A stretch of DNA of 64,000 bases from Paracyclopina nana (taxonomy: Eukaryota > Arthropoda > Copepoda > Cyclopoida > Cyclopettidae), in contig JAGUCH010000006.1 of NCBI GenBank assembly GCA_019096065.1, forward strand, positions 2,872,001 to 2,936,000. Direction: 5' to 3'. Below the pieces are notes generated by a model, which made no database searches, had not been told where the DNA came from, and saw only the letters and a list, made by a program, of their open reading frames with translations. Positions within the stretch are counted from its first letter, which is position 1. Every line of letters begins with the position of its first letter. The position numbers were made by a program, and so were the translations under genes. Of this stretch, positions 29,379-57,547 are shown piece after piece.

Positions 29379-32188
29379 AGGTGAAAAAAGTTGGGCACTG
29401 TGGACAAAACTATCTTGAACAGTCCCACTTAAGAACATGATGTAAATACCATTGAACGCTTTTGTTGAGCTCTTTTATTTCAACTTTTTTTCATATTTGT
29501 GCTGTGTGATTTTTAAAAAGGATTTTGCCCATGACCCCCCACATTGAAGCTATTAGTAAAGTCAAACATCATCTTTTCTTAGGTTAACAAAGAGAGTGTC
29601 CATTTTACCACCTTGCTTGCAAAGTACAGAGTGTGTACTCAAAAATAGTAAAATATTGAAAAAATAAACTATACAATCCTTGACGTCATTTTGCTGCAAT
29701 GAGGCAAATGTAGTTGATGTAGTTGTTGACATCAACATCCATTGTTTTTTAGGGGGAATAGCCAGTTCTAAAAAAGTTTACAACACACTCTTTAGTCCGT
29801 TTAAGGCAAAATTGAATGACATTCCTTGAAGTTAGTGCAACAATCGGTCAGTACCTTCCACAATAAACCTATTTCCTTTTAGAAACATTTACTGTAAGGC
29901 TGCTGGGAAAACTGCCCCCAAAGCCTCCCGGTAATAAAAGGGAATTGACGCAAAGTTCGTGGGAAATGTTGTGCAGCAGAGGTGATAATGCTCATATTTT
30001 ATTATGAATGGGCTTAATTATCTGTGAGATAAAAGGCTAAATGCTTATCAGTAATTTTGGATGAGTTGATCCCCCTCCAGGATTAGCAAAGCGTGCACAT
30101 GTGACTCAATCCGCATTAATCCCAACTGATTTTTTGTTGAGTCACTCTGTCATTGGCTTGGTGTGTACAAACAAACCAAGAAAAGCTTAATTAAGGGATT
30201 ATCACCTAAGTTTGAGCCTTTCAGCTCCTGCTGGAGAAAGTTGCCAAATAGATTCAAGCTTTTTTTCAAAATTCTCTCTCAAAATGGCGCTTCTCCAAGA
30301 TTGTTGATGTCAACAAATTCATCTGCAAGTTATTTCCAAATCCAAATTCTTGGCCTCCACATGTCAATGTCGGTTTGAAGGTCGTCTCTCTGATTGACTT
30401 GAGAGCCCAAATGCTGAATGGATTTGCAGTCCAGCATAACGAATTGATTTCCTCTGAGTTTCCTCCTAACAGTGAAATAACTAGGTGGTCTTTTTGGGCA
30501 GTTAGCAGTAAGAGTAGTTGACCACACCACTTTTTGGAAAATCCACAAAGTCTGATTGTGAGTTTGACATTGAGGAATGATTTTTGGGCTGAGAAATGGC
30601 CCAGTAGCAACTCAATTTTATTTACACTTCTTATGGCTATGGAGAAGGTCTTCTTCAGGAAATCTGAGGGAGAAATTGCGGCGCAAAGAATGGCCATTAC
30701 TCCAGGTTAAATTGTCCGAGTGGTGATAAAAGAAACTTCAAGGGTCGATGATTTTTATGCTCTTTCCGCTTTTTGAAGGTTGTGATTTTCTCCCTTTTGG
30801 TTCAAGATGATAACTGCTCCCTAGTTGGATATTTCACACACCCAACAATTTTTTTTCAATCGCAAAATGTGCCACAATTTTTTAATGCTTGCATTTTTGA
30901 GGCACTCCAAATTGGTAAGTGGCGCTACTCTGCTCTTTGCAAGCTTGTCACATAAAGTATGTAAAACACCGGTTTTTATGATGAAAATGTTACTTCTACG
31001 TATGTGTGTTTGTTAAAAAAAGGTAAAAATCTTGCTCTGTAGTATATATTCAAATATACGGTATTTATGGCACATCATAAAATAGCTCACCTAGTTTAGA
31101 CGGAGTAGAGTAGAAAAAGGTATAGCAATAGGTAAAGTTGGTATCAACAACTGTGTGAAGTGACAGCATTAGTAAAACAAGCTAGCAAAATTGCTGCAAT
31201 TTCAGAGATTGGCATCTACTGAACCATTCTACGCTACAATTCGGAAGTTTGCTTTGGACCCTTTTAACTCACCAGTAAAATTGTGAAATGGACCAGGATT
31301 CCCCCTTTTTTGCCACCTCAAACAAGACAGAAACTTGATGAGCACTTTTCAAATATTTTTTATTTAATTCTTCATTTTGCAGCCTTGTATGCTCTGCCAG
31401 TTTGAATCTATTTCAAGTAGCACAATTTGGTATTCAATTTGGATAAATGAATAAAAAACTAGCCGGATTCAATGTCACTTTGATTATTAATTTCATTGTT
31501 ACTTGACTACGCTTTATCTTTCGTTTTTTCTATGTATGGTAGTCACACGTACGTAGATTTCCGAATAAAATACTGCAAAAAAAAAGTGATTCTACAGACT
31601 GGATGATTTTGACCTGGTAGTTTCAAAACATTGCGATCATCATCATCATTGAAACGATCTCCGAGTGAAATCTGTTCCAAGTTCCCCCTGGCTGCTGCTG
31701 CTGGTTTAGGCTGGCACACATATTTTTTCACTACTACAAATCCCCTCGTTTTTTATGGCAGCTAAAGAAAAGGGGAGAAGAAAACTATGAAACAAAAAAT
31801 ATGATGGCAAAGGAAATATGTGACCATGTTTCTTTGACATGAATAGTTTCTTTTAAAATTGGCTCAAAATTCTTGGCTCCATAATAGGAGAGAAAGGGGA
31901 CGAAGAAAGAATAAGCTACCATAATAAAACTGCTTTTTGATTTATGGTACATCACCCACTTTTCATGATATGGACAGCTGCTCCTATTTAACAACTATTT
32001 ATTGTTGTTGTGGCCAGCCAATAATAAATTCTACCCAAAATCTGACCCATGCTATGTGAGTCTGGTGGACAAAATGGCTGCATAAGATTTTTTTGAGGCA
32101 CTTTCATCACCTCATTTACATGGCAGGTGAGAGTCAGAGCAATTAAAAAGTGCATTCCTCATATAATAAAAAAGTTCATGTTTTCTTA
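29379..32188. other. intergenic interval before the retroelement
   Basis: No supported gene. It contains possible poly(A) signals for gene D (29663, 29863). Two overlapping minus-strand open frames at 30266-30697 and 30330-30548 lack an identifiable motif. The rest is AT-rich sequence. Confidence 0.45.
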
Positions 32189-32193
32189 TCATT

Positions 32194-32506
32194 TGTTTCT
32201 AGCAAGAGGATGCAACGCTACGCGTAAAGACGAGAGCCCTAATTGGGAGTCAAGATATGACAAATGCAACGCATCCATACATGTTTTCATATAAAAGAGT
32301 GCTGCATCGCAGCTAAAAGTAATAAATGATGAAGTTCACATGAAATATATATATTCGACAAAACAATATCTTCATTGGTGTGAGGTAAAACAAGTACTGA
32401 ATAAAGAGCACAGAATAGGGGGCAGAGATCCAATGGCTGCCACTGAGAAGACGGCGCGCTGAGCTTCAGCTTGAGACCGTGGAGAGCGCTCAAGTACCAC
32501 GTAACA
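32194..32506 (-). repeat. 3' LTR of the BEL/Pao element
   Basis: The 313-bp LTR has terminal TGTT...AACA and is identical by eye to the right LTR except for one extra G near 32209. On the minus strand it carries AT-rich TATA-like stretches (ATATATATATTT and TTTTATATG). A short open frame inside the LTR is incidental. Confidence 0.93.
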
Positions 32507-32520
32507 TCTACCCCCCTAGA
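32507..32520 (-). promoter_or_regulatory. polypurine tract of the BEL/Pao element
   Basis: Minus-strand TCTAGGGGGGTAGA lies immediately before the 3' LTR. This is the expected place and composition for plus-strand DNA priming. The 13-bp core is repeated exactly inside the second ORF at 35282-35294. Confidence 0.8.
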
Positions 32521-32652
32521 AGTCCTGGATTGGAAAGCCTGGAAAGCTGAAGGACTTCTATTAAGACAACTCGCGACGCGAAATTGCCATTACCGCGACG
32601 CGGCAAGTACTTTTATTCTATTATAAGCAAAAGGAAAGAAAATAGGCAAGCT

Positions 32653-35625
32653 CTAGCAGGAGTCGGTGAAAGGCACCTCCACTCTTCGCAGATCTTGCTC
32701 TTTGTTGAGACTCATAAACAATCCCTCTTCTTCGAATTCGCAAATGAACTCTGCGCAATCGTGTAGGGAGAGCGTTCTTCTGTTGAACATGGCACAAAAG
32801 CGAAAGTTCTCCACCATTCTGATGAAGTCAGCGTCTTGATGATGATGAGCGAGGTGGCCATACATGTGACATTTATCACAGCGCACCCACAGGCGAGGGC
32901 AGACAAACAAAACGTGAGACGTGGCCCTGCACAGGGGATAAAGACAAAGCAGCAGAGCCTCCTTGCAATCCGGACTCTGATGATCTGGAGAGCCACACTT
33001 ATCGCACACGTGCGGCGAGAAGGCACCCATCTTGAAGTGGTAATCCAACAGTAGGCCCCAATTCAATTGGTTGAGGTGGCCGCCGGTGAAATCTCTCAGG
33101 AAACTGACCAAGTCGTTGTCAAGGTTATGCAGGTCAAAGGCATACTTGTGGCCTTTCAGAAAGACCTTCTTCGAAGGTAGTGGGTGGCGTACGCTATTGG
33201 CCGCGCATCCATCAAGGAGCACCCACTCCGCACGCAAAGGGACTCCATATCTGCTCTCATCCATAGAATGGAACTCCACAAGATTCCATGGCCTGCGTTG
33301 CAGCGAGGTCTTGCCGATCCCATTGACCCCAGGCATGTTGACCAGGCGAGAGAGGAGCAATCGCAAATAGCGCAATGCGTCGGCATCTGGAGAGCATCTC
33401 TCGAGCTCCATAGCCCGCGTCGCGGCTCGCCACATCAAGGCAAAAGGAAGCGACATAGTGCAAAAGACGTGCATCTTCATTTCATGAGTCCATGCCTCAA
33501 AAGGCGTCGCAAAGTCCGCCGATGCCAAATCCAAGTGGAAAACGCGATCCGACGTTGCCTGCCTGTCCGTGGCGTGCCTCTTCTCACGGCGATCCTTGTG
33601 GACGGTCAATGGGATGGCGGGGGAATTCAGGCGGGTGGCAACATAAGTGGGATTGCACTGCATTCGTCCAGGCTCCACTCCAGGCTGAGGATACTGAGTC
33701 AGAGCGAGTAGGGTGGCGTCGATGTAGCTCTTCAGCTCAATGCCCATTTCCACAAATCTGCCCTCTTCATGTATGCCTGACTGCACCTTGAAGTTGACCT
33801 CAGATTCCAGGATGGCCGCTATCTCCTCCGGCACCCGATGACCCACAAACCCATGTTCGGGCCCAGCATACAAGCACTGGTCCACGAGGACCACGCCATT
33901 AGCAGCACCAAGGGCATAACCGGCCATACAGAAACGTGGCTGCTCACCTTTCCTTGTCAGTAGACCTCGAGATTCCAGGGCTGCCTTCGTCCAGTTCAGG
34001 GCCCCCAGAGTGGTCACGCCAGACCCGTTGATGGCCCCGAAGAAACCTAGGTCCCTCAATCTTTCTCTGACGTCGTCCCACTCTTGATCTTTGCCGTAGA
34101 AGACGTAGGTCCTTCTGCCGTTCTTACGATTGTCATACGGACCAGTCTCCATGGTTGACCACTCCTTGACCTTCTTCATAGGGTAGTAAGCCCAACACTC
34201 CTTGTTGACATGAATGACGTCACCGTCTTTTATTGGCAGGCTCCTGAGAGGACAAGACTTGGACGTGCACGTGGTGTTGGCTGGCTTTCCAGTAATGCAG
34301 GACTCCAGGTAGGGGCAGTTGTAGCGGCTGTCCGGCTGCGGCGGCTCAGTGGTGGGAGCCGGTGGCCTCACCAAATAGGTGGCACGGTCTGGAGGTGCAG
34401 CTCCTCCCTGCTCAACCGCGACGCGGTCATCCAAAGGCTTTTGGACCATTTGAGGGCAGGTGGACGCCAAAATGCAGGGGTTCTTCGAGGCGGCGGTCCA
34501 GAATGCTCTCACCCACTCCAACGATCCGACCATCATGCGGTCTTCGTGCCCGAGGAAGGCCATGATCTGCTCTATTGCCGAGGGGGCGGCATGCAAGATT
34601 TGCGCCGACGGGCCAGGAGTGGCAGCGTCAAGCATGAGCTTCCTGCCCAAACAATCCAAAAAAGCGACGTACTTCTCTGACGTCACGTCGGCCGCCGTTC
34701 TCAGGTTGGCAGGGAGGGTTCTAAAGCCTACATCTTCTTCTTCATCCTTTCCCATCTGGTAGCTAAGATAGCGTGGCCTGAGACTTTGATGCCATTTGGC
34801 CAAGACGTCGCACGGCAAGTAGCCAGAGGCCAGGGAGGCCATCCTCATGGAGTCAGCCCTGAGGGCTGCGGCGCAGCACATGGCCTTCTCTTCTCTGGTG
34901 CGTGGATCCCCAGCGTTTGGCGGCCCATACGCCCCGGAATCAGCCAGAATGCCCACGCTTGGATCGGAGTAAATTTCGATCAGTTTTTCTCCCTCCATTT
35001 GCATCAAATGATCTTCAAACTCCGCGGTCCTCAGCCCCAGCAGGTCAATCATGACCGCCTTTGCCTCCAGCTGCTCCGGGGTGAGTGGCGTGGATCCTGA
35101 AAAATCAGCAACGGTAGAGGGAGGTCCATGTAGAACGTGTCTCACAGGAGAGGAGGCTCCGTCAGCGAGGAACGCGGATGGCTGGTAGCTATCGCTATCA
35201 TCCTGAGCCCTGGGGATCGTGATGAACATGGTCTTATAAACGGGTTCCCCCCTAGGCGAGGCGACACCAGTGTCAGCCTCGTCTACCCCCCTAGCGCTAG
35301 CCCCTTTTGTCCCAGCGTCGCTGTCACCCGACGAAGTTGATGCCGAGCCTGGCGATCGCTGCCGCGTTTCCGAGTCAGTCGAGCTTGATGATGCGGAGAG
35401 TTTTTCTTCGTCTGTGGATTCCGATGCGGTGGGAGAAGGAGGCGGTGAAATTTTTCTTTTCTTCTTTTTAGGTACACGCTCGCCATGGTCGGAGTCGAAG
35501 GTTTCGTTGTTTTTGAGTATGACAACATCTTCTTCCATTGGCTCTTCTCTTGACGTCGAAGGCTCAGTCTTGTTAGGGACAGCGACGCTGGACCCCCTTA
35601 AAGATTTATGAGATTTCTTACCCAT
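32653..35625 (-). CDS. BEL element ORF2: putative nuclear zinc-knuckle accessory protein (990 aa)
   Basis: One uninterrupted ATG-initiated frame lies downstream of gag-pol, where some LTR elements have env. It does not look like an envelope: I see no signal peptide, membrane helix or furin-like site. Residues 1-50 are charged and polar. KKKKRK at 53-58 (after VP) resembles a monopartite nuclear-localisation signal. Residues 60-130 are Ser/Asp-rich. The 700-residue centre is mostly globular-looking and Ala/Leu/Arg-rich, with a Cys cluster in the 440s-460s. Near the C terminus are three knuckle-like motifs: CDKCGSPDHQSPDC (874-887), C894-x4-C-x4-H-x4-C909, and CDKCHMYGHLAHHH (916-929). This triple layout echoes the three knuckles of the element's own Gag, so a Gag-derived nucleic-acid-binding protein is a reasonable inference. 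I do not recognise the family. Confidence 0.85.
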   Translation of the reverse strand: MGKKSHKSLRGSSVAVPNKTEPSTSREEPMEEDVVILKNNETFDSDHGERVPKKKKRKISPPPSPTASESTDEEKLSASSSSTDSETRQRSPGSASTSSGDSDAGTKGASARGVDEADTGVASPRGEPVYKTMFITIPRAQDDSDSYQPSAFLADGASSPVRHVLHGPPSTVADFSGSTPLTPEQLEAKAVMIDLLGLRTAEFEDHLMQMEGEKLIEIYSDPSVGILADSGAYGPPNAGDPRTREEKAMCCAAALRADSMRMASLASGYLPCDVLAKWHQSLRPRYLSYQMGKDEEEDVGFRTLPANLRTAADVTSEKYVAFLDCLGRKLMLDAATPGPSAQILHAAPSAIEQIMAFLGHEDRMMVGSLEWVRAFWTAASKNPCILASTCPQMVQKPLDDRVAVEQGGAAPPDRATYLVRPPAPTTEPPQPDSRYNCPYLESCITGKPANTTCTSKSCPLRSLPIKDGDVIHVNKECWAYYPMKKVKEWSTMETGPYDNRKNGRRTYVFYGKDQEWDDVRERLRDLGFFGAINGSGVTTLGALNWTKAALESRGLLTRKGEQPRFCMAGYALGAANGVVLVDQCLYAGPEHGFVGHRVPEEIAAILESEVNFKVQSGIHEEGRFVEMGIELKSYIDATLLALTQYPQPGVEPGRMQCNPTYVATRLNSPAIPLTVHKDRREKRHATDRQATSDRVFHLDLASADFATPFEAWTHEMKMHVFCTMSLPFALMWRAATRAMELERCSPDADALRYLRLLLSRLVNMPGVNGIGKTSLQRRPWNLVEFHSMDESRYGVPLRAEWVLLDGCAANSVRHPLPSKKVFLKGHKYAFDLHNLDNDLVSFLRDFTGGHLNQLNWGLLLDYHFKMGAFSPHVCDKCGSPDHQSPDCKEALLLCLYPLCRATSHVLFVCPRLWVRCDKCHMYGHLAHHHQDADFIRMVENFRFCAMFNRRTLSLHDCAEFICEFEEEGLFMSLNKEQDLRRVEVPFTDSC

Positions 35626-35846
35626 TTCGACGATAGTTGTTGACGCTTAATTTCACTTGTTCACACTGTGTGTTTGTTGCCGGTTAGAGCTAACAGGAAA
35701 GGGAAAGTCAGCTGAATTGTTTGTTGTTTAGTCGGAGAATTTCGATCTCGCAACCTTCGCACGAAACCTTTGTTTACCAACAGAGTTTTTGGTACTGCGA
35801 TAGTCATTTATTAAAACTTTTCACGAATCTTCAGGTAATATTCAAT
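35626..35846 (-). promoter_or_regulatory. inter-ORF region with likely 3' splice sites
   Basis: The 221 bases between the gag-pol stop and the ORF2 start contain, on the minus strand, pyrimidine-rich stretches ending in AG (AACAAACAATTCAG and CTTTCCCTTTCCTGTTAG). A spliced subgenomic RNA would let ORF2 be translated from its own ATG, as env is in retroviruses. This is inference; the matching donor near the 5' LTR was not identified. Confidence 0.3.
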
Positions 35847-38800
35847 TTAAATCTGTTCAATGAGTCTGACCGTCTGTTTTCTATGTCTGACATGCTTTGT
35901 GGCCGTCGGTGGTGGTTGACTTACAGCGGGCACGGAGGATGGAACTGGTGGACGCGTTAATACGTCTCGAAGGCGATCCAATTCCATAGAGTTAAAATCC
36001 GACATCGTTTCCTCCTGAGCTGCTCTCAATTCGTCAGGGTGTTGTTGGGCCACGAGTCTTGCTGCAGTTACCAACTTTAATGACTCTTCGGTGTCGTCTG
36101 GGTCGGAGCATTGGAGAGGTATGAGAAGCTCTGCAGATTTTTCGTAAAAAACCGGTAAATCACTATGGGGCACGATCATCCTAATATAAGCTCGTCGAGC
36201 AATTCCGTCCGAATCCTCGTACGTGCGATGCACTCTGGCTACGGGCCATTGGAAGCGTTGCTTGAATAGAGCTTTGTCTAGAACAATGACGGCGTCGCCG
36301 GCTTTTAGATTAGCTCGATGATTCTTCCATGTGTTTAACTTTTGTAGCTTGTGAACAATATGTTTTGCCCAGTACTGCCACATAGCTTGAAGACACGCAT
36401 CGGTTTTTTGTAGGACTCTGTCTCGTGTGGTGATTTCGGAGGGATCGATGACAGGCGTTAGATCTCCTGGTGGTCCTTTCGTGAGAAAATGGTTGGGCGT
36501 TATTATGAACCCCTCAAGCTCTCCCAACGGTCTACCATTTACGAATCCCTCTGATTTTACTATTAACGTTTTGAACAACTCAATTGGTGTCACCATGGAG
36601 TCGAAGTAGCTATAGAAAGTTCGTTTGAAGATTTTGACGGCTGCTTCCACTAAACCATTGGCGTGTGGGGTGTGTGGAGGCGAGAGTGTCCAATGTAATA
36701 CTCCAATTTGTGCACCGTATTGTCTTAGCTCCTCCCAAGCCATATTGTGCAGCTTCTCCACCATTTCGTGGTAGCGTGGATTGATCGATATTTCGTTTCT
36801 TAGGCCAATGTAGTTTGATCCTCCATCACTGCGCAGCAAATAGGGGGTGCCTCTGCGGGCTATAAAACGATCCAGAGCTCTCTTGAGTTCTTCAGTTGTC
36901 AAATCGTAGACTTCTTCTACGTGTATAGCCTTAGTGTGCCTGCATATGAATATGGCCACGTACATGTCGTACGAGCTCCTCAGAAAGGACACTTTGAAAG
37001 GACCACAGAAGTCAGTGCTAACATATTTGAATGGCAGCAGATCCGTGATGGGGATAGCATTAGCAGGAAGTAGCCCCATATGTGGTGGCAAAGCCATTGC
37101 TTTCCTTCTTTGACATATGCCACATCGTTTTAGAATGGTTTTCATCAATTTTGTGGCTGAGACTATGTGGTGCGTAACTTGTGCGTCGCACAGATATCTT
37201 GTCAATCCATAGCCACATCCTACCTGCTTGTGGATCTTGTTTAAGTAAGCCTTCGCCATGGGACCCATCAGAATCAATTGTTGCCTGCCGATCCACTGTA
37301 TTTGAGAATTGGCTAGTCTGCCTTTGGTGCGGAACTCTCCATAGTAGCCAATAATAGGATCTAGCGTCGCTAACACCGACTTGGTGGGCCAACTTTTATT
37401 TTTCAAGAAGTAGGAGAACTCGGCTCCCAAATACTTTTGTTGTTGCGTCGCAACCAATTGTATTTCGGCTCTTTTGATTTCTTCCGGAAATAATGGCCCC
37501 CTGAATTTAAAAAGTCCCCTCTGCATAAACCTTTTAGCTCGCGCCCAGACTCGCACCAATCTGTCGTAATCGGAGAATTTCTCCACTATTGGAAGTTGAA
37601 GGTTTTTATAACATTTCCATTTGTACTTAATGGCCTCCGCAGGTAGTAAATGGGAGGGGATTATGAACAGGGGCATGGCGACCGCGGGTTTGGCCTTCAT
37701 GGCCTTTAATGGCTTCAGTTTTTCTGCGTTTTGTGCCACTACCGCTGCCAGCTCATCATCTGTGGGCTTTATTTTGGTGGCGGGCCACTCATTTTCAGTC
37801 TTTTTCAGATAGCTGGGACCATGTATCCAAAGAGTGCTAGCGGCCAGCTCCTGAGGCGTGCAAGTGCGAGTGGCATAGTCAGCTGGGTTGCACTTGGTGT
37901 GCACCTTTCTCCACGGCCACTCCCCCACTGCTTCGCAGATTTTGGTGACCCTTCGACCTACATATTGAGCCCAGTTACAAGCTGGCTTACTTATCCAGGT
38001 AAGAACACATGTGGAGTCAGTCCAAAACACCACCCGGTCTACCCGATCCAACTCTCTTAGGAGGTTGCTGGCATAGGTGGCGCCTAGTACGGCAGCGTTC
38101 AATTCCATCAAGGATATAGCCCTCACTTCCTTTAGAGGTTTAACTTGTTTCCTGGAGCCCAAGATGGTCACATCCACCTCGTTGCTCGGGTAGGTGACTC
38201 TCAGATAGGCTACCGCTGCCAAGGCCATCTCCGACGCGTCTACAAATACGTGCAGTTGTATGTTATTAGCGTACTGAGTGCGAGCAGTTCTGGGAAAACG
38301 TAGCAGTTCCATTTTCTGGTTGTCTGCTATGTATTGTGCGAAATCCTTGACAATATCCTGTACTCCCTCGTCGTCGACGTAATCCAGAGCGGTGTCCCAA
38401 TCAATGGGAATGGTCCTCCTTGCCATGTGTACCCGTTGAAGGAGTAGTGCTCCCCGGAGGGTGATGGGGTCTATCAATCCTAAAGGGTCATACTGGGTGG
38501 GCACGTATTTAGTCATCGACCTCAGGGTTGTTGGCTTCCCTTCATTGTTGTCTGGAATAGGTGGGTATATTATCTTGTCCGATACCGTATCAATGTAGAG
38601 TCCTAGTGCCTTTGTGACATGGCTCTCCTGAGGTTCGATGGCGACGCCAGAAACCCGCAGTTCTTCTGGAATTCCCTCGAGTACTATTGGGTGGGAGCTT
38701 CCCCACTTCCGGAAGGTGAGCGCCGCTTCCTCTCCAATCTCTCTTATTTCTTTGATGGCTTGAATGGCCTGAGCCTCCGTCTCGAAACCAGCCACCAAAT

Positions 38801-41800
38801 CGTCTACATATAGTGCTTCGTTCAGCGCCTTGTATCCCAGTGGATGAGAGGTTTGATAATTGGCGATGTGATGTTTTATGGCGAAGGTTGCCATGCATGG
38901 TGCTGAAGCCGTGCCAAACACCACTGATGATGCCTCATAATGATTACCCTGCCAAACAAACCTCTGATACTTCCGCGACGCGGGGTCCACTTTGAATCTG
39001 AGGAACATTTTGCTTATGTCAGCAACTACAAGTATTGGAGCCGCTCTCGCTCTCAGAAGTACATTATGCACGTCGCTCTGTAACTTCGGTCCTGGTAAAA
39101 GGGCGTCATTGAGGCTCTTCCCATCATGCTTTCTTGCCCCATCAAAGACCAGTCTGATTGGCATAGAAGGCTTGTCTAGTCTGATGACGAGTAGCCAATC
39201 CAAGTATCTGCCGTCGTCGAGGTCGTCCAGCTCTGGATCTAGCAGGCGGATGAAGCCCAAGTCTAGCCATTCCTCTATTTCTGCTTTGGTTTTGTGGTAG
39301 GTGTCTGGTTGCCACAGTAAGAGTCTTTTCTCTAAAGCTGAGGTGTCTTTCAGCACTTTCAGCCTGTTTGACCGAAAGGCAGGCTCACCTTCCCTCCACA
39401 TTAAATCCATTTGGAGCGCCCTGCTTCCTAATCTTGTGATTGTCTTGGTGAGAATGTCCAGGGCTTTTTGCTCATTAATACTCATGCGTTTGCTCTCCAT
39501 GGGGGGATGGGAGTTCACCCGATCTGGTTCCCAGATGGCTTTGATGATCTCTGGTGGTGGTCCGTTGTGACCCCCGCATGCGTCGCATGGTGGTGGGTTG
39601 TTGCTTTCAATCTGGTAGGCCTGATTGGGAATGACAGCCGCATGCATTAAATTCACTGGATGCTGAGGCTTGAAAACCTGGTTTGAGTAAGTTATAACTC
39701 TTCCTATTTTCATGTCTACCACATAAGGCTCCCCTGGCTTGTCATGTACGACTTTTTCCACCTTCATCAACTCGAACTGATCAATACCCAGAATGATGTC
39801 CGCGACGCGGTTAGTAGCATAATCGGGAAAATGTAGACTGGCCAAGTCTTGAAACTTCTTTTTCAGCGCTGCTATCGGAGGCATTTTTATGGTGTCTGGA
39901 ATTTCTGGGGTTGTGTGGGCTACAAATTCGTATTCTTCTCCTGTGGCTGTTGTCATGTTCATGCTCACAATCTTGCTCGGGATCCACCTAGTCGTAGTCA
40001 GCATCCTCAAAAGCTGATCGTCCCTTGGTCCCTCCAGGCCCAACCTCTTTGCTACTGAGTCTCTAATATAAGAATTCTGCGCGCCACTATCCACAAACAC
40101 ATTAACTAGCAATCTCACGTTCGGTTTTTTGGGATTGCAGATGTACACGGGCACCACATTGAAGCACACGGTCGGTAGTTTCAGTGGCGCCGAGCAGTTG
40201 TTGTGTGCTTTGGAGCCTATCTCCTTTTTACCCCCCTTTTTGGGTTGGGGCGCGCTGGGGGCCGTTACAGTCATGTGAATTTGCTCTTCCTCATTGTCCA
40301 AATGTAGCAGGTTGAGTTGTTGTTGAATGTGTGTGAGCGAGTTATTCATATCGTTGAGTTGTGTAGCCGTGGTTATTGCTGGTTGAGGGTGCGGTTGAAT
40401 AGGTGCCGCAGATCTGATCTTTTTATTTTGCTTTTTCTTCCAGACGGCATGAATGAGGGTGTGGTGGTCCGTGGCCTTGCAGGTATCACAGGAATTTTGT
40501 TGCTCACAATCGGCAAAGTTGTGAATTCCCAGCAGACATTTGAAGCACGCCCTGATCCTGTGCAGTTTTGTCATGCGATTTTGATCCGTCATGGCGAGGA
40601 AAGCAGGGCACTCCGGAAGAGTGTGGTTTCCTCTGCACTGTGGGCACGAGGCATAGCTTCCTTTTTTATCTGGCATTACTTGTAGTAGGTGAACCTCGTC
40701 CGTAAGGTCAATCAGCTCTTCTTCTAAGCTGTCATCCGGAGTTGGTAGAATGTCGTCAATTGCAGCGTGCATAACGGCTTGCTCTGCCTGTAGTACATTT
40801 AAAGCTCTATGTTTTCTCTGCTTGTCTTTCAGGAATTGTCCCTTGGTGGCCATTTTGTTGCGATGCAGACCTAATATGGCTTTGACATAATTGTCAAAGT
40901 GTTGGAAATTGAAACTGATGAGCCCTCTATTTACCAACCATGAGTCCATATGTTCCTGCGTCGCAGGGTCGACATTTAAGCACGAAAATACAAAAGTGTC
41001 AAACTGGCCATTGTGGAGGGCTTGCTGCCCGTGCATGTAGGTGATTTGTAGAAATACGTTTCTGATTTCGCTCTGGCTCAACATCAAACTTTCGTAACTT
41101 TTCTTGTTCATAGGTGGCAAAGCCCTTAATTGTGCCAGCAGGTAGCTCAGATGGCGTTCCTCGTTGCCATAATGTGCGTCGAGCTCCTCTAATGCAGCTA
41201 TGTAGGTTTCGTAACTGGCTTGTTTGTTGGCCACGGCATAATGGGCAGGTCCTCCCATCGTTAGGCTGCATAGGCGGGCCCACTTTTCATGGAAGGAGAC
41301 TGTGGCGTTTTCGTGTACGAAGGTACGAAAGTTTTCCCTAAACGTGAAGTATTGGCTATCATCCCATCCATCGAATTTGACCAGTGCAATGGGCTCCATC
41401 TTAATGTTGGGTTTTACTCCAGGCCCAGGTGGCGCGTCTCCCACATCCTTCCAGAAGCTTTCTGGGTTTTGCTTGCGATCTATATTCTGCGTTGTGGGAT
41501 TTGTATTAGGCGTCGTCAATGGGACCGCTGGAGAGAACGTATTGTTTCTTTTTAGGATGGAGACTGAAGGAGAGGTTAAATTTTCTCTATTTCTGTGCGC
41601 GGTAAGTTCCTTCAATGCGTGAAATAAGTCCTTTGCAGTATGGTAGGTTTCTACGTCTTCTTCCGGCAGTCTGTCGGGCTTGACCAGTGTCAGCAACGCT
41701 TCTCTCCTTGCCTGATATCGCCCCATGACGAACAGGGCTTTTTGTTGCAGCGCCTGGATTTCTTCTGAGTCGGCCATTGCGGAAACGGCGGCCTTCATCA

Positions 41801-43589
41801 GGTCCACTTGCGACGCAAGATGTTTGACCGATTCGTGATAGTCACGGACGAGGGCGCTCCATGCCTGTTTTTGGTGGTCGTCCAAACCCTCCCGAGGTGC
41901 CAAAGGGTCTTTCACTGTGGAATATGAGCCGAATGACACTTGTTTGAGGGGTGATCTCCACGAGCTTTTCTGCGAAATACCAGGGGGCGGCCTTGAGGTG
42001 TCAGGAAGGTTTGTGGAAGTCCGCACGTCCCAACGAGAGGGGGGAGGAATCTCCAGCATTCTGTTGAGATATGCTGTTCTCCAGTCCTGTGGCAACCTCG
42101 GATCTTCGGAACCCGGCTGGGTATGTCTCATATAGTTATTCTTTTCAATCCTCTGTTTGTAATACGCCTGTTGTGTTAGATCTGCTTCCCTCTTCTGATA
42201 TTCCGTGATAGTCATGGTGATCACTTTGCCGCCGTCATTTATGGTGACGTAACCAGGGGGTGGAGCGTTGATGCGGTCAGCCCCTCCTTTAGGGGGTGCT
42301 TGTGACTCTTCGTTGCTAGACTGCGACCACGTCGCGGGCGAGCGATCATCCCTAGCAAGCGGTAAATTAGCGGGATTGGCGGCGGGATGGGGTGGTTCGT
42401 ATTGTTGACCTGTGGACGCGTCGCGTTGGTTCAATAAATCGTGGTCTTTTATCATTCTTAGCATTTTGTTAAGATAGATGGTGCAGCCATTGCAGCAACG
42501 GTCACGTAGCCGCTTTAAATCTGCCGACGGAGGTTGGAGACTTGCGCCGCAAGCCAGCATATACTCGTCCATAGTCTCTTCGAGATGAGCCAAATAGAGC
42601 TGCAGGTTTTGGCTATTTTCTTCCAAATACTCTATAGTTGGTGCCTTCTTTGATTTCAGATCCCTTTTGATTTGATTCAAGTGTTGCCCTATTTCGTCAA
42701 ACAGCTCCACGAAATGTAGTCCAACCCTTTCCATGTCGGCCAACGCCTGTTGTTGTCCAGGAGTGATGGGCCCCTTTCCTTTGCCAACAATCTTGCTGTG
42801 GCCCTTGAATGGTACAGCCTTAGGCGGGTTTTGTTTTTCTATCAGCCTCCGTGGGTCCGTTGGGTCTTCAATGATGTTATACTCTGGAGGCTTCTGACTC
42901 TGCTGCATTTGCTGGTCTTGGTCTTCTGCTTGGTTGGCGACGCCAGATGTGCCGTCTGGGGCAACTACGGTGTTATCTTGAGACGTCGTCGACTGATCGG
43001 TGTTGGGGAGAGAGCTTTTACCAGTGGGTTTTGGCCCTTGATATGATTGACCTAATTGATCGGCGCCTGTCTGGCTGGGACCGGGAGCAGGAACAAACGG
43101 AGTTTCAGTTCTGGCTGCTACATGCGACGAAGCAGATTGCGTGGCAGAGGCCCCTGCTTCTAGCAGCTGCCGTCGAGCTTGTTCGTACTCAGAACTAGGT
43201 GGCTGCCGGGTTACCTGCGGGTTGCTCCCCTGTCTGCCTGTTAAACCCACCCCTGGTGTCTCCCCTATTGCGACGATGCCGCTCAAGTTTTCCCATCCTG
43301 CGTCTTGAGTGGGCGTACGTGATATTCTACTTCTGGAGAGAAAAGGTTGCTCGTCTGTATCCTGATCTCCCATTGGCGTGGTTCTTGCCTTTTGTAGCCC
43401 TGCTAGAATTGTGGGTGTACCTTTTCCTCTGCCCAAGGCCTTCTTCCTTTTGGCTTGAGTGTAGGGGGACTTTTCTAGCTCCAAAGGACTTCCTTGCCAA
43501 GGTGATTGCTTCCTCTGCCTTTTGCTCTGCCGAACTGGCTCTGGGATGTTTGCCCCGTCGGCTGGCTTTTTCAGAGTTTTCCTCGGCAT
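35847..43589 (-). CDS. BEL/Pao Gag-Pol polyprotein
   Basis: A single frame encodes about 2580 residues from the ATG at 43589; the frame is also open upstream into the primer site and LTR. In residues counted from the upstream end of the open frame at 43676: a long polar N-terminal Gag part; the DUF1759-type capsid region (near 769, FDGWDDSQYFTF); three zinc knuckles (about 1016-1070: CPQCRGNHTLPEC, CFKCLLGIHNFADC, CDTCKATDHHTLIH); a retropepsin-like protease with DSGAQ (about 1195); reverse transcriptase with YVDD (about 1620); RNase H (FVDAS about 1811, ELNA, WTDS); integrase zinc-finger region (HH and CGIC); integrase core DDE (STDFCGPF about 2221, RSDGGSN about 2284, GLVEAAVK about 2342); and a C-terminal DUF5641-type region. 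All catalytic residues looked for are present. No frameshift is needed between Gag and Pol. Confidence 0.95.
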   Translation of the reverse strand: MPRKTLKKPADGANIPEPVRQSKRQRKQSPWQGSPLELEKSPYTQAKRKKALGRGKGTPTILAGLQKARTTPMGDQDTDEQPFLSRSRISRTPTQDAGWENLSGIVAIGETPGVGLTGRQGSNPQVTRQPPSSEYEQARRQLLEAGASATQSASSHVAARTETPFVPAPGPSQTGADQLGQSYQGPKPTGKSSLPNTDQSTTSQDNTVVAPDGTSGVANQAEDQDQQMQQSQKPPEYNIIEDPTDPRRLIEKQNPPKAVPFKGHSKIVGKGKGPITPGQQQALADMERVGLHFVELFDEIGQHLNQIKRDLKSKKAPTIEYLEENSQNLQLYLAHLEETMDEYMLACGASLQPPSADLKRLRDRCCNGCTIYLNKMLRMIKDHDLLNQRDASTGQQYEPPHPAANPANLPLARDDRSPATWSQSSNEESQAPPKGGADRINAPPPGYVTINDGGKVITMTITEYQKREADLTQQAYYKQRIEKNNYMRHTQPGSEDPRLPQDWRTAYLNRMLEIPPPSRWDVRTSTNLPDTSRPPPGISQKSSWRSPLKQVSFGSYSTVKDPLAPREGLDDHQKQAWSALVRDYHESVKHLASQVDLMKAAVSAMADSEEIQALQQKALFVMGRYQARREALLTLVKPDRLPEEDVETYHTAKDLFHALKELTAHRNRENLTSPSVSILKRNNTFSPAVPLTTPNTNPTTQNIDRKQNPESFWKDVGDAPPGPGVKPNIKMEPIALVKFDGWDDSQYFTFRENFRTFVHENATVSFHEKWARLCSLTMGGPAHYAVANKQASYETYIAALEELDAHYGNEERHLSYLLAQLRALPPMNKKSYESLMLSQSEIRNVFLQITYMHGQQALHNGQFDTFVFSCLNVDPATQEHMDSWLVNRGLISFNFQHFDNYVKAILGLHRNKMATKGQFLKDKQRKHRALNVLQAEQAVMHAAIDDILPTPDDSLEEELIDLTDEVHLLQVMPDKKGSYASCPQCRGNHTLPECPAFLAMTDQNRMTKLHRIRACFKCLLGIHNFADCEQQNSCDTCKATDHHTLIHAVWKKKQNKKIRSAAPIQPHPQPAITTATQLNDMNNSLTHIQQQLNLLHLDNEEEQIHMTVTAPSAPQPKKGGKKEIGSKAHNNCSAPLKLPTVCFNVVPVYICNPKKPNVRLLVNVFVDSGAQNSYIRDSVAKRLGLEGPRDDQLLRMLTTTRWIPSKIVSMNMTTATGEEYEFVAHTTPEIPDTIKMPPIAALKKKFQDLASLHFPDYATNRVADIILGIDQFELMKVEKVVHDKPGEPYVVDMKIGRVITYSNQVFKPQHPVNLMHAAVIPNQAYQIESNNPPPCDACGGHNGPPPEIIKAIWEPDRVNSHPPMESKRMSINEQKALDILTKTITRLGSRALQMDLMWREGEPAFRSNRLKVLKDTSALEKRLLLWQPDTYHKTKAEIEEWLDLGFIRLLDPELDDLDDGRYLDWLLVIRLDKPSMPIRLVFDGARKHDGKSLNDALLPGPKLQSDVHNVLLRARAAPILVVADISKMFLRFKVDPASRKYQRFVWQGNHYEASSVVFGTASAPCMATFAIKHHIANYQTSHPLGYKALNEALYVDDLVAGFETEAQAIQAIKEIREIGEEAALTFRKWGSSHPIVLEGIPEELRVSGVAIEPQESHVTKALGLYIDTVSDKIIYPPIPDNNEGKPTTLRSMTKYVPTQYDPLGLIDPITLRGALLLQRVHMARRTIPIDWDTALDYVDDEGVQDIVKDFAQYIADNQKMELLRFPRTARTQYANNIQLHVFVDASEMALAAVAYLRVTYPSNEVDVTILGSRKQVKPLKEVRAISLMELNAAVLGATYASNLLRELDRVDRVVFWTDSTCVLTWISKPACNWAQYVGRRVTKICEAVGEWPWRKVHTKCNPADYATRTCTPQELAASTLWIHGPSYLKKTENEWPATKIKPTDDELAAVVAQNAEKLKPLKAMKAKPAVAMPLFIIPSHLLPAEAIKYKWKCYKNLQLPIVEKFSDYDRLVRVWARAKRFMQRGLFKFRGPLFPEEIKRAEIQLVATQQQKYLGAEFSYFLKNKSWPTKSVLATLDPIIGYYGEFRTKGRLANSQIQWIGRQQLILMGPMAKAYLNKIHKQVGCGYGLTRYLCDAQVTHHIVSATKLMKTILKRCGICQRRKAMALPPHMGLLPANAIPITDLLPFKYVSTDFCGPFKVSFLRSSYDMYVAIFICRHTKAIHVEEVYDLTTEELKRALDRFIARRGTPYLLRSDGGSNYIGLRNEISINPRYHEMVEKLHNMAWEELRQYGAQIGVLHWTLSPPHTPHANGLVEAAVKIFKRTFYSYFDSMVTPIELFKTLIVKSEGFVNGRPLGELEGFIITPNHFLTKGPPGDLTPVIDPSEITTRDRVLQKTDACLQAMWQYWAKHIVHKLQKLNTWKNHRANLKAGDAVIVLDKALFKQRFQWPVARVHRTYEDSDGIARRAYIRMIVPHSDLPVFYEKSAELLIPLQCSDPDDTEESLKLVTAARLVAQQHPDELRAAQEETMSDFNSMELDRLRDVLTRPPVPSSVPAVSQPPPTATKHVRHRKQTVRLIEQI

Positions 43590-43645
43590 GTGGGGAGAAA
43601 AGTGATCTACCTCTAGCGTACTCACTAGATTAGGCTCGGGAGAGG

Positions 43646-43663
43646 CCCCACGTTGGGCGCCAG
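43646..43663 (-). promoter_or_regulatory. primer binding site, tRNA-Lys(CUU) type
   Basis: Minus-strand TGGCGCCCAACGTGGGGC starts 2 bases inside the 5' LTR. It is complementary to the 3' 18 nt, including CCA, of eukaryotic tRNA-Lys(CUU), the primer type used by tRNA-Lys1,2 retroviruses. The match is from knowledge of that tRNA; no tRNA gene is in this window. Confidence 0.85.
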
Positions 43664-43665
43664 AT

Positions 43666-43977
43666 GTTTCTAGCAAGAGGATGCAACGCTACGCGTAAAG
43701 ACGAGAGCCCTAATTGGGAGTCAAGATATGACAAATGCAACGCATCCATACATGTTTTCATATAAAAGAGTGCTGCATCGCAGCTAAAAGTAATAAATGA
43801 TGAAGTTCACATGAAATATATATATTCGACAAAACAATATCTTCATTGGTGTGAGGTAAAACAAGTACTGAATAAAGAGCACAGAATAGGGGGCAGAGAT
43901 CCAATGGCTGCCACTGAGAAGACGGCGCGCTGAGCTTCAGCTTGAGACCGTGGAGAGCGCTCAAGTACCACGTAACA
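43666..43977 (-). repeat. 5' LTR of the BEL/Pao element
   Basis: The 312-bp LTR is identical to the left LTR except for one missing G (GAGATGC against GAGGATGC, near 43680). Such high identity indicates a recent insertion. It should contain the element's promoter. Confidence 0.93.
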
Positions 43978-43982
43978 TCATT

Positions 43983-46900
43983 ACCAGCCAAAAAGTTAGT
44001 GTTACACATCCTGTCTGCTACAGCCCCCAAAAAAGCATGCTGAAGCATCATAATAAAAGTTTGAAAAAAAGGAAGGCTAGTAGTACTGCTACAAATACTG
44101 CATACATATACAGCTTTGTTGAATATCATCATGAGATCTTTACAGTCATATATATAAGCCCAGTTGTTTGCACCTGTAGTAGCAGGAGCAGCAACTCTGT
44201 GCTTTTCGGCATATTTAGTCACAAATGTTGGCTGCTCAGTAAATCTTGCCTATTTCACCCCATAATTCAATGGTCTGTATACGTTAGATATTTTTCAGTT
44301 TTTAGCTAATTTGCGGTGTGACATGAGTCAGATGGATGGCATTTCACGGCGAACCTTTCAATTTGTGGTCGATCAGTGTCCAATATGTCGTCTCAGAGGG
44401 TCACGCCTCTCCCTTTCTTAGATAGGGAAAAGCTGCTGCTGTAGGGGGGAAAATGTGTCAATACCTTATAAACACACGTGGCCATGCTCAATTTCAGCAG
44501 CCAAACATCTGTTTGAAGTAGAAACTTGCGCGTGGTCAAAGCAGCCTTAGCATACCAGATTAGTTAGGTGGTCATGTTTGGACATGATCCATTTATTATG
44601 AATGGCAAACAATATTCAGCCACTTGTAAAACAACACAAGTGATGTTGCCCTTTAAATACAGTGATCAAAGAAGCGAACGAACAAAATAAAGATAGGAAA
44701 GTTGTAGAAATGCAATGGAGCGCTTGAAAAATAGTTTCAAGAGTTGTGATAAATCATGCAAGCACAATTGAAGCTGTTTTAAAAAACTGCTGTGCAGCTC
44801 CTGTTTGAATAGTCAATAGCTAGCGAAAAAGGGAAACTTTCAAAATCTTGACACCATCCATGGGTGGGGGAATGCAAAGATTATCGTCAAGCTGTAGACA
44901 CTTTTATTGAGCCAGAGAGTATAGCAGCATCTTGCAATAAATAGCTGTGAATTTGCATCATGATTCATCCAAATTGTATGCATGCAGCTGCTACAGCTAG
45001 TAAAGAAGCAGATCAGAAACCGATTTGCCAGCCTTAATCCTCCCTTTTAAAAAGAAAGCATAAATCATGTCACCGCCTCATTTCCATACTGATTAATTAA
45101 AGCGTAGTATGTCGTTTACGCGAGCAGAGCTTTAGGCAGTTTGAGAAACAAGCCCTGCATGAGCTTTCTTGATTTTTCACAATTCTTCAAAATTACTCTC
45201 AGTACTAAAATCCAGAGCTTTTCTTGCCTATTTGTCCTAGGCTTTTCAAGCTAATCAACAAAAATCGGCCTTTTGATAGATTTTCATGAGTAATTGAATT
45301 CAGGCTGGCAATTCAATGAATTTAGGTTCACATGCGGTGTAGTGTAACTTTAAGCACTAATGCTATGCTTGTCATCATGGTTGTCGTGCAAGTAATTGAA
45401 TCTTGAATGCCATTACTTTAAATGGAGCATGTCTAGAGATGTCTCCCCGATAAAAACTGCATAATGTACATATAGCACCATATACAGCAGCAGTATGATG
45501 GACAAAAACAAGATTACTGCAGCTAGTGTAAAACATGATGGTGACAACTTATAATACAGGAGCTAGTAGCGAGATCCATTTGCAAGCCAAATGGATCCGT
45601 GATAACCACCAAAAAAGCAGCTGGATCCCCCCAAAATTGGAGTCAGTTTTTCTTGTTGTTGTTGGACAAATTATGACAGGGAAACGCCCTCTTGAATCCC
45701 TCTCCCCCTTTTTATGTTATGCCACTGCTATCATGTCAGATAATATGTTGCATTATGCAACTTTTTTTTGTCTGCTCCTACTATGATGCTGGACCTAAAT
45801 GGGATTAGGAGTCTCCATACTAATATTCACACCTTTGGAAGGCAGTTTCCCCCACTGTGTTGCATTAGCTCACTGTGTATATGTTGCAATTGCTGTGTGG
45901 GGGAAATGTCTGAGCGACAGAAGTGCAAAACCTGACAGCCTTAGTTGAAAATGGCCTTTTGACCACTTTTTTCTCCAGATTGGACGATATAAAGACATTA
46001 CTAGACTAGTATGTGACCTTTAACTACTCTCAGGAATTCACCCTTTTGATTCTTCTCTTCCACAGGTTTCTAAGGCTTGAAATGTTAGCTTGTCGTGACT
46101 TCTTTTGAAGAGACCTCTCTAAACTGGCTTTGACACTGAAATAATCTGCCGACAAGACGTTAGATCACGATCAGAATTTTTGGTATAGAGCTGCGAAGAG
46201 AGATGATCTTCAAAAAGAAATGCTAAATAAACAGGTATCACCTTTTTGCCCCACTATCAAAACATCACCAATGTTTTCTATTCACAGTCTTTTTGAAGTT
46301 GAAGATGATGCCACCACCATATGGAAAAGTTTTCCTTTTTTTCTTGGGAAAATACACATTTCTCTTTTTTCGTGTTTGTGATGGCAGAAATTCAGTATTG
46401 CAATAATGGCGTGACAAAAGGTGATATCATGCAGCTTTTTTTAGTTGCTCGGGCCTAGAGTCGACCAGTCAACGAGCTCCGCTTCTTGACAAACTTTCTC
46501 ATTGGCTCAAGAAGTTGGCGCAATTTGCTCGCGCATCTCTCTTCTCAATGCAGACCTTTGCACTCACTAAAAAAGGGTAATTTCTAAATAAGTGCTACCT
46601 TCAGTTTCCCCACTCCTTTTTTATGATTGTGTCTGCAACACAATTTAATTATTTTAACAAGAGTGCATCAAAAAGTAATGATGAAAAATGCAATTAAAAG
46701 TGTCTATTCTGGTAGCACTTTTTTTCTAATAGCGTTATCCTAAACAGAACAACGTTGTTTGCGAGTTCTCTTTTGAGATAGCGCGCTCTAGCGCTTTAAA
46801 GAGGAGAAAGTGAAGGCACGAAGCCATATTTTGGTAGCTTTAGATGGCAAAGTGTCCAAAGTGGGTGGTTGCAGCTGAAATTGAATACATCATAGCATGA

Positions 46901-47400
46901 AATAGAGACAGATTGGCCTGTCAAGCTCAACTTTGTGTGTGTGCATGCTTTTTTAAATGGACTTTTTTCTCCGTGCTCAGCCATAACAGTAACAGTAGTG
47001 TGAAATATCTTCAGAGAGAAAGAGAGAGAGATGACGGATTGGCCTTGTCAAAAGGGATTTATTTCAAGCAATTGAGCATCTTTGTACCCATTCAACGCCC
47101 AGTTTTGCTGCCTTGCTACCTTTCATTGTGAGAAATCATCTTTAGGCCGATGCTGCTTTGCCGCGCAAATGCCACATTCATATACTTTTTAGCCTAAAGA
47201 ACAAAATTCTAGCAGACATTAATTTTGAATTTGGGAAGAAAATCAAAATTAGAAAGCCAAGTTGACAATGCACCTTCAGTCAGGAAAGCAGGTTTTCCTT
47301 TTCCATAGATGAAAATAGCTTTAAGAGGGAAACGTGGAAAGTTGGGGAAGGTCCATAATATGGGATGGGGAGTGGAGTTGTCGGTTTTTGCCACTGCACT
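43983..47400. other. intergenic interval between the retroelement and the RNF220-type gene
   Basis: I see no supported coding exon or RNA gene in these 3.4 kb. It contains AT-rich sequence, short GA-rich runs near 47018-47031, and scattered short open frames without motifs. Confidence 0.45.
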
Positions 47401-47698
47401 TTCGAGAGTGGCGGTCGCCAGTCTCGACTGAGTGCGTGCAGTGGGCGAAACGCCGCGCAGTTCTCAGCTTATAGTGAGTTCAGTTCTACTACTGCTGCAC
47501 TGTAGACTCTACTGGCTTACAAGTGGAGTCCAGTTGGAGTCAACTGGGAGTAAATTCGGCGGCCGACCGCGCTCTCTCTCTCAGCTTCTAACTATTATTT
47601 GCTACTTTACGGACTCCACTACGCCAACAACTCAGTCTCTCTCGCGCACTTCCACTCGATGAACCTAGATATCATGTTCACAGCAGTTTGAAAAAATA
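47401..47698 (+). promoter_or_regulatory. probable promoter / 5'UTR of the RNF220-type gene
   Basis: This stretch is locally GC-richer, has CT-rich runs (CTCTCTCTCTCAGC) and many GAGTC/ACTCC pentamers, and leads directly into the first coding exon. No TATA box is obvious. An in-frame TAG at 47666 supports the annotated ATG at 47699 as the start. Confidence 0.35.
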
Positions 47699-54738: not shown

Positions 54739-55210
54739 TTTTTAAGTAACTTAGCACTTTTTCTTCTGAGCCAATGACTACCAAAAAATAGTGCCAAAAT
54801 GATGATGACGATGATTTTTAGTGTTTATTGTATTACTATTACGCTACGATTTCTGCTACTTCATAAACAGTAAGGAGATGGTCCTTTTAAGACAATTTAC
54901 GGCACCACCAACTTGAAACTAGTCTAGTTTTTTTTTCATTTTCTCCCGCCAATTCCCTCCCCATGCAGAAAAACTGATTTGATTACCATCATGATGGAAG
55001 ACCTAGCTTTACCGCATATTGTACTCCTACTACTACTGCACACTGCAAAAGAAGTAGCCGCGTTGTGAACTAATTCACATCTGTCTTGATTCCATGCATG
55101 GACTTCAATAATTATGACTACTCTCTGTATTGTTGTTCGCACATAAGTTTACCTTCAGTAGAAAATATAGTCAGCTGAGTCTACCTAAAATTACCAAGCT
55201 TCTTTTAAGT
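54739..55210. other. 3'UTR / intergenic of the RNF220-type gene
   Basis: No coding exon is seen. It probably includes the 3'UTR; an obvious AATAAA was not found close to the stop codon. It contains several ATGATG and TACTACT trinucleotide runs. Confidence 0.4.
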
Positions 55211-55214
55211 CATT

Positions 55215-55560: not shown

Positions 55561-55662
55561 GTTCTCTTTAACTCAGCATTAAATCGTTATCAGACCTCAA
55601 ACGATATCTGATCTCATTTGTTGCCTCATTTATTCCTTGTGCTGATTAGTTTGGCCAACATC

Positions 55663-57475: not shown

Positions 57476-57547
57476 CCGATCACACAAATCCCGAATTCCT
57501 TGTATTACCACACATCCACACTTCTGTACACTTCCCCCATTTCATGA

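Follow-up and report, generated by a model that had tools for sequence, protein, structure and literature searches.

The window analyzed here is a stretch of 64,000 nucleotides from the copepod Paracyclopina nana (assembly GCA_019096065.1, contig JAGUCH010000006.1, positions 2,872,001 to 2,936,000 of the forward strand). It contains a BEL/Pao long terminal repeat (LTR) retrotransposon, referred to below as the window element, whose sense strand is the minus strand. The element is a member of BEL/Pao, having a Pao Peptidase_A17 domain, a reverse transcriptase, DUF1759, DUF5641, paired LTRs and a short target duplication. A family of short palindromes, described in a first-pass annotation as odd palindromes on an A/T-centred GCGWCGC core, is spread throughout this element. 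The analysis suggests that they are probably short stem-loops in the sense RNA, with loops private to each clade, read by a protein of the element for packaging or assembly. The main features of the element are as follows.

32194..43977, minus strand: BEL/Pao LTR retrotransposon, 11,784 bp, with two identical 313-bp LTRs
32189-32193 and 43978-43982: 5-bp target duplication TCATT, flanking the element
43665..43977, minus strand: 5' LTR in the sense orientation, with two GNU-loop hairpins
32194..32506, minus strand: 3' LTR in the sense orientation, same sequence as the 5' LTR
35847..43676, minus strand: open reading frame (ORF) 1, Gag-Pol, 2609 amino acids, with DUF1759, RVT_1, Peptidase_A17 and DUF5641
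32653..35625, minus strand: ORF2, 990 amino acids, with three C-terminal zinc knuckles (residues 874-929)

Matches of ORF1 to aspartic proteases are weak and below the cut-off, and three CCHC-like knuckles can be recognized by eye in its Gag portion. The sense strand just inside the 5' LTR (43641-43664) reads TGGCGCCCAACGTGGGGC, which we take to be a primer-binding site, presumably of the tRNA-Lys type. On the other side (32507-32530), a run of six G stands directly before the 3' LTR, resembling a polypurine tract.

All 19 occurrences of GCGWCGC in the window fall within the element, and 18 of them are extended by two more complementary flank pairs at the positions first reported, the sole exception being the site at 33504. 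Pairing continues to a third flank position in 6 of the 18, which is near chance. The genome to which the window belongs (92 Mb, 10 contigs) contains 3273 such heptamers, about one per 28 kb, against 19 in the 11.8 kb of the element; among them is a tandem array of GCGACGC (G000:C1:997359-997686), the first units recurring every 19 bp or a multiple thereof. If both protein sequences are kept and each codon is chosen independently by the codon usage of the element, 2.45 GCGWCGC sites are expected in the two ORFs and 17 are observed. For the symmetric sites the figures are 0.23 and 16 (ORF1, 12 observed and 0.18 expected; ORF2, 4 and 0.04). This codon-preserving expectation, a check that the first-pass annotation had named as able to refute the palindromes, did not refute them. 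The view that the constraint acts on nucleic acid and not on protein is supported. Chance, codon usage or amino-acid content as the source of the sites has a practically negligible probability, given this excess and the noncoding and LTR sites. The symmetric GCGWCGC sites of the ORFs occupy two codon frames only (6, 10 and 0), not all three as had been claimed; with variant loops included, hairpins fall in all three.

Under a wider definition, GC(RNY)GC plus two outer pairs, the element has 27 hairpins, of which 25 are distinct because the LTR pair repeats. The 52 kb outside the element gives 10 matches over both strands, that is, 5 sites, each counted twice. The distinct hairpins, written in the sense orientation with the loop in capitals, are listed below.

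43773..43783, minus strand: LTR hairpin ctgc-GAU-gcag, with a copy at 32302-32312
43735..43745, minus strand: LTR hairpin atgc-GUU-gcau, with a copy at 32264-32274
42935..42945, minus strand: tggc-GUC-gcca
42542..42552, minus strand: ttgc-GGC-gcaa
42416..42426, minus strand: acgc-GAC-gcgu
41808..41818, minus strand: ttgc-GUC-gcaa
40956..40966, minus strand: ctgc-GAC-gcag
39800..39810, minus strand: ccgc-GUC-gcgg
39578..39588, minus strand: atgc-GAC-gcau, identical in 5 of 6 other copies
38973..38983, minus strand: ccgc-GUC-gcgg, identical in 5 of 6 other copies
38639..38649, minus strand: tggc-GUC-gcca
37443..37453, minus strand: ttgc-GAC-gcaa
37362..37372, minus strand: tagc-GAC-gcua, with a GUC or GCC loop in three other copies and the site lost in three
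37181..37191, minus strand: gtgc-GAC-gcac
36290..36300, minus strand: cggc-GAC-gccg
36253..36263, minus strand: variant loop, aagc-AAC-gcuu
36223..36233, minus strand: variant loop, gtgc-AUC-gcac
35580..35590, minus strand: cagc-GUC-gcug, within ORF2 near its start, with a GCC loop in two copies
35313..35323, minus strand: cagc-GAC-gcug
34866..34876, minus strand: ctgc-GCC-gcag
34416..34426, minus strand: ccgc-GUC-gcgg, with a GAC loop in two copies
33415..33425, minus strand: ccgc-GAC-gcgg
33293..33303, minus strand: variant loop, ctgc-AAC-gcag
32593..32603, minus strand: ccgc-GUC-gcgg, 3' noncoding
32571..32581, minus strand: tcgc-GUC-gcga, 3' noncoding

ORF1 holds 15 of the 27 and ORF2 holds 6. 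Their positions, LTR sites included, do not differ from uniform (Kolmogorov-Smirnov P 0.54), and no regular spacing was seen in the window element (coefficient of variation 0.82). Beyond the stem a few flanking columns depart from background, none of them repeated between clades, and Rfam gives no match at the gathering score in 32100-44100. The earlier statement that the LTRs lack such sites holds for GCGWCGC and fails for hairpins of the same design, each LTR having two with GNU loops, 38 nt apart (43735-43783 and 32264-32312). CpG decay may have added some of the ANC and GNU loops, and was set aside as their source. The identical LTRs of the window element contain GNU loops, and each of the seven copies of this clade has a GNU-loop hairpin that occurs twice and is taken to be in the LTRs, so that the GNU loops look functional. 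Altogether two or three hairpins per copy are duplicated in this way within the sequence read.

Relatives were recovered by a protein search of the same genome with a piece of pol, in which 66 of 272 first-look places were scored. In all, 22 elements were read in pieces: the window element, six copies of its own clade (64-75% DNA identity to it where the pol piece matches) and 15 others, among which L030 and L031 have the same pol piece sequence. The palindrome sites proved to be conserved in the other copies, a check that the first-pass annotation had itself named. Across the seven copies the two positions flanking GCGNCGC pair in 154/171 and 142/171 sites, all four Watson-Crick pairs being used at each, and pairing at the next two falls to 68/171 and 38/171 (40% and 22%), the former being somewhat above one quarter. 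GC-closed sites have 4-bp stems in 133/167 cases when the loop is GNC, in 47/105 when it is another RNY and in 37/335 when it is neither. The window copy has 22 distinct GC(GNC)GC sites, 20 of them with at least 4 bp, and each of the six other copies has 22-26, of which 17-22 reach that length; one hairpin of copy C2 (L023:1304) continues as a palindrome whose arms reach 12 bp, well beyond any of the rest. Homologous sites can exchange the loop and keep the stem, as GUC for GAC at 34422 and 41814, GAC for GUC or GCC at 37368, and GUC for GCC at 35586. The A/T-centred core is too narrow as a definition, since other centres, and loops other than GNC, also occur.

Hairpins with a 4-bp stem and a loop of 3-8 nt were searched for, those with more than 4 loop nucleotides being grouped by the end bases of the loop. 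Among the five best loops of each element, one hairpin family emerged per clade.

GNC clade (window element and six copies): GAC/GUC loops, or GGC/GCC in copy C5b
AWU clade (L030, L031, L035, L050): AUU/AAU
CAN clade (L034, L036, L047, L048): CAG, plus CAU in two
YC-GWC-GR clade (L032, L039): GAC/GUC over a different closing pair
GAAA clade (L037, L049): GAAA tetraloop

The CAN clade uses CAU and CAA in addition to CAG, and the stems of L034 may run longer. No hairpin family was found by this search in the outgroup elements L033, L038 and L040, and one scan for relatives in viral contigs returned none. When outer-pair pairing at closed sites was tabulated across clades (L031 being left out as a duplicate and its 3' piece L044 kept), the GNC set was paired at 133/167 sites of the GNC clade, against 0/1, 0/1, 0/2, 0/2 and 0/5 in the others. 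Own-clade counts of the remaining sets are 68/80 (AWU), 61/83 (CAN), 28/40 (YC-GWC-GR) and 23/62 (GAAA), and the three outgroup elements give 0/5, 0/16, 0/3, 1/6 and 1/18. Some sets cross over: CAN in the AWU clade (6/13) and AWU in the CAN clade (16/31), mostly because both sets contain the loop CAU, as well as YC-GWC-GR in the GNC clade (11/39) and GAAA in the CAN clade (3/17).

In a tree of the pol piece of the 22 elements, midpoint-rooted and with long outer branches flagged, the codes group by clade, with GAAA nested inside CAN and the three hairpin-less elements outside all hairpin rows. One homologous site keeps the stem GCGC while its loop varies: three members of the AWU clade have AAU, L034 has CAA, and both L036 and L048 have CAG. 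Between sister clades the loop code was replaced as a whole, and in this one case the replacement can be seen at a single site that kept its stem. At alignment column 1397 of the pol piece, L049, a GAAA element, has an apparent decayed CAA hairpin (closing T.G) that is intact in three CAN elements.

Covariation was assessed at homologous sites that keep the loop type and differ in exactly one of the four pairs. Two-sided changes retain a Watson-Crick pair in 12 of 12 ordered comparisons (GNC 6/6, AWU 4/4, CAN 2/2), which represent 7 distinct sequence pairs and are not all independent. One-sided changes comprise 2 G.U and 11 others in GNC, 2 G.U and 2 A.C in AWU, 1 G.U, 1 A.C and 4 others in CAN, and 2 G.U and 2 others in GAAA; the YC-GWC-GR clade has 10 unchanged homologous sites and no single-pair change. 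Synonymous positions were compared in the pol piece of six copies, leaving out the most diverged, C5b, and the Met and Trp codons, with the GNC hairpins chosen in the window copy only. Where the amino acid is invariant, all copies use the same codon at 10 of 12 positions with the third base inside a hairpin, compared with 15 of 446 at the remaining positions (Fisher P 2e-12).

A mutational by-product, in which quasi-palindromes become perfect when the reverse transcriptase switches template, would make complementary arms without sequence preference, and odd palindromes with other inner triplets are in fact slightly raised, 149/1575 extending to 5 pairs (9.5% against 6.25%; CCG 15/35, GGG 10/28). 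The inner triplet GCG nevertheless stands out (138/173), pairing, at 83-90% in the two flank positions, is down to 40% and then 22% further out, and the loop and closing pairs are fixed and the synonymous sites frozen, all of which makes this origin very improbable. A general excess of palindromes was likewise discarded: even palindromes with arms of at least 5 are rarer in the element than outside (0.59 per kb against 1.3-1.4), and odd ones are commoner (2.97 against 1.6-1.7), about half of these being GCGWCGC.

The sequence comparisons show that the arms are paired, that loops are specific to clades, that pairing is conserved and synonymous sites are constrained, and that the code has switched as a whole. 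RNA would be the active form, and here the strand on which the loops occur is informative. In GC-closed 4-bp hairpins of L034, L036 and L041, the CAN loops lie on the sense strand (CAG 25 against CTG 2, CAT 11 against ATG 0, CAA 8 against TTG 0). GAAA is found over four Watson-Crick pairs in 23 of 171 occurrences, where 0.67 would be expected at 1/256, and none of the control loops gave a 4-bp stem (TTTC 0/74; three rotations of GAAA 0/396; seven other GNRA loops 0). The GAAA stems rise to 42 when G.U is allowed and to 32 when A.C is allowed instead, a gain of 19 against 9. In local folding, native flanks beat shuffled ones at 113 of 184 sites (sign test P 0.002): 27/45 for GNC, 30/45 for AWU, 25/45 for CAN, 12/27 for YC-GWC-GR and 19/22 for GAAA, the sample being the first 45 of 58 GNC, 67 AWU and 60 CAN sites, with GNC drawn from the window, C1a and C2 only.

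Arms that are free in sequence yet paired, loops that are not self-complementary, and GAAA and CAN on the sense strand point to a single-stranded stem-loop, most simply RNA. The same observations disfavour the dimer-bound duplex-DNA palindromes suggested initially. Duplex palindrome binding was rejected as the leading explanation for its demand on the arms, for asymmetric loops (CAU, CAA, GAU, GUU) and for the strand bias (sense-only GAAA, CAG 25 against CTG 2); the class behaviour of the loop centre is left unexplained.

Several results weigh against the RNA interpretation. The triloop clades tolerate G.U no better than A.C, with 10 against 8 single-pair departures at closed sites and, when any of the four pairs may depart, 85 against 96 summed over four clades, weaker than expected of an RNA stem; for these clades the RNA argument rests on their sister clades. 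The GNC and AWU loops are near-balanced with their reverse complements (GAC 48, GTC 45; AAT 19, ATT 32). The bases at the loop centre change class together, being mostly A/T in the window copy (18:2) and mostly G/C in C5b (14:4). Both findings keep a base-paired centre, in kissing loops or duplex DNA, alive for GNC and AWU. Sense clearly beats antisense folding in GAAA only (19/22; GNC 23/45, AWU 27/45, CAN 27/45, YC-GWC-GR 14/27), and predicted hairpin probability is moderate (mean 0.47 for GNC, 0.33 for YC-GWC-GR). When every mapped GNC site is counted, including those that were lost, 21 two-sided changes are paired and 40 broken, which is not clearly above chance because many sites are gained and lost. 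Turnover between copies is high, 396 of 798 GNC comparisons being unmappable.

Part of this evidence would suit duplex-DNA sites for an element-encoded homodimer or a host factor, for example a VANC-like anti-silencing protein marking its own family: the A/T balance at the centre with its shift to G/C, the lack of preference for G.U over A.C in triloop clades, and the two CpGs of each GNC site. In Arabidopsis, VANDAL transposons counter silencing through VANC, with a family-specific short repeated motif replaced together as families diverge (PMC5735166), and in BEL/Pao the clade-specific motifs also change together. A duplex reader has, however, no evident way of demanding complementary arms of arbitrary sequence, some loops break the palindrome, and the strand indifference seen in GNC and AWU, taken alone, fails in CAN and GAAA. 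VANC motifs are reported to be noncoding tandem repeats (PMC5735166), and the hairpins here are single, mostly within ORFs, with no noncoding tandem arrays. On balance we regard duplex-DNA sites as unlikely.

Kissing-loop or palindromic RNA-RNA contacts, serving genome dimerisation or long-range folding, would pair GAC with GUC and AAU with AUU. They draw on the balanced reverse-complement loops of the GNC and AWU clades, on an AUG/CAU pair in L035 (6 and 6 sites) and on the centre behaving as an A/T or G/C class. Loop self-complementarity is partial in GNC and AWU and absent in CAN (CAU, CAA) and GAAA; since these last two clades have no reverse-complement partners, kissing cannot be the shared function, and this role is quite unlikely.

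Hairpins in the single-stranded cDNA during reverse transcription, acting in nucleocapsid chaperoning, strand transfer or the integration complex, would account for strand-specific loops equally well as RNA and for the missing G.U preference in triloop clades. They are harder to reconcile with GAAA stems taking G.U over A.C (19 to 9) and with predicted RNA hairpins being more probable on the sense strand at 19 of 22 GAAA sites, a difference not clear elsewhere, and this form is judged improbable.

For the stem-loops in sense RNA, packaging or assembly self-recognition by zinc-knuckle proteins is the most likely use, judging from the sequences, and the packaging idea of the first-pass annotation would thus survive as the leading one. 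What that annotation saw is real; its form was misjudged, the GCGWCGC palindromes being one case of a wider stem-loop phenomenon. In the proposed mechanism, a stem of about 4 bp, with outer pairs that are free but must pair and a closing 5'-GC...GC-3', would be capped in the window clade by a GNC triloop or, less often, another RNY. Some 20 to 27 of these stem-loops would lie along the RNA, in coding and noncoding parts, and related clades would follow a common design with another loop (AWU, CAN, YC-GWC-GR or the GAAA tetraloop), hence a loop code of their own. A clade-matched, element-encoded RNA-binding protein would read the loop, most likely through the Gag or ORF2 zinc knuckles. A multitude of weak contacts over the length of the RNA could admit the RNA of the element itself to packaging or particle assembly and keep that of sister families out. 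Whether this amounts to a transposon identity system, in which each BEL/Pao lineage has a private repeated loop with a matching reader and escapes by switching both, including a change from CAG triloop to GAAA tetraloop between sister clades, is evenly balanced.

Both candidate readers have some grounds. Three CCHC-like motifs occur not only in the Gag of the window element but also in the seven other Gag pieces scanned. ORF2 recurs among the BEL/Pao elements examined, and every clade with hairpins has an element that contains it; an alignment of 11 sequences has 48 invariant columns, the knuckle ligands among them, and Pfam zf-CCHC matches 7 of the 11 at E up to 0.1. No homologue of ORF2 was found at E 0.001 among 8000 candidates scored from 5.8 billion proteins, and its profile gave only weak matches to solved structures (best E 0.01, mostly knuckles), Lin28 chains being among them (best E 0.029). 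Against a simple link, ORF2-like frames also occur in L038 and L040, which lack detectable hairpins, and no ORF2 match was found in the 3 kb behind L033. Either Gag or ORF2 may thus be the reader, and the hairpins are either younger than ORF2 or disappeared from the outgroups. Two further ideas were set aside. The reader might be a faster-changing region, and ORF2 differs most (37% identity for ORF2, 49% for a Gag-side piece and 74% for a reverse transcriptase-side piece), but these figures come from one CAN-GAAA pair and prove nothing. Gag frame length does not clearly separate hairpin from outgroup elements.

Elsewhere in the window, the open frame at 13027-13992 belongs to the major facilitator superfamily (MFS) of sugar/organic-cation transporters and is probably a host gene, and the flanks differ in CpG observed/expected (0.34 in 1-31000 and 0.64 in 44000-64000).

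How an LTR retrotransposon chooses its own RNA among those of close relatives and host messages is, to our knowledge, an open question. The RNA side of a recognition code is apparently readable directly here, in at least 5 versions within one genome, changing between sister clades. These codes provide ready-made swaps for testing the reader, and for asking how a code changes when at least 20 sites and a protein must follow. They also show that short structure codes can hide in coding sequence and be found from copies within one genome alone. No description of a BEL/Pao hairpin code was found in the titles and abstract openings of the literature searched, most subscription journals lying outside its coverage.

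Among known systems, retroviral psi stem-loops are bound by nucleocapsid zinc knuckles, and the knuckles of Lin28 likewise read the loops of short hairpins; the likeness lies in CCHC knuckles, the candidate readers here, reading short-hairpin loops. Psi occupies the 5' region, whereas the BEL/Pao hairpins are present in at least 20 copies along the RNA. In MS2 and other single-stranded RNA viruses, the dispersed packaging signals are numerous genome-wide stem-loops whose stems vary under a common loop recognition motif (PMC6281560). The window element likewise has multiple spread stem-loops, by sequence and prediction, a shared loop over variable stems, and signs that pairing and synonymous positions are under selection, although the full set of mapped GNC sites gives 21 two-sided changes paired against 40 broken. 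The loops of the viral signals are degenerate, and those of the LTR retrotransposons are near-invariant, change as sets between sister clades and have a role proposed from sequence. The alphavirus nsP1 packaging signal, with 4 to 6 stem-loops bearing GGG (PMC8233893), is alike in that a single loop motif recurs on several short stem-loops within coding sequence, through which genomic RNA is selected; it forms a local cluster, and the hairpins described here are spread over the whole element with switchable loops. VANDAL/VANC, in the account quoted above, relies on a double-stranded DNA motif in noncoding tandem repeats, in contrast to the stem-loops of BEL/Pao, which lie in ORFs, LTR and untranslated regions.

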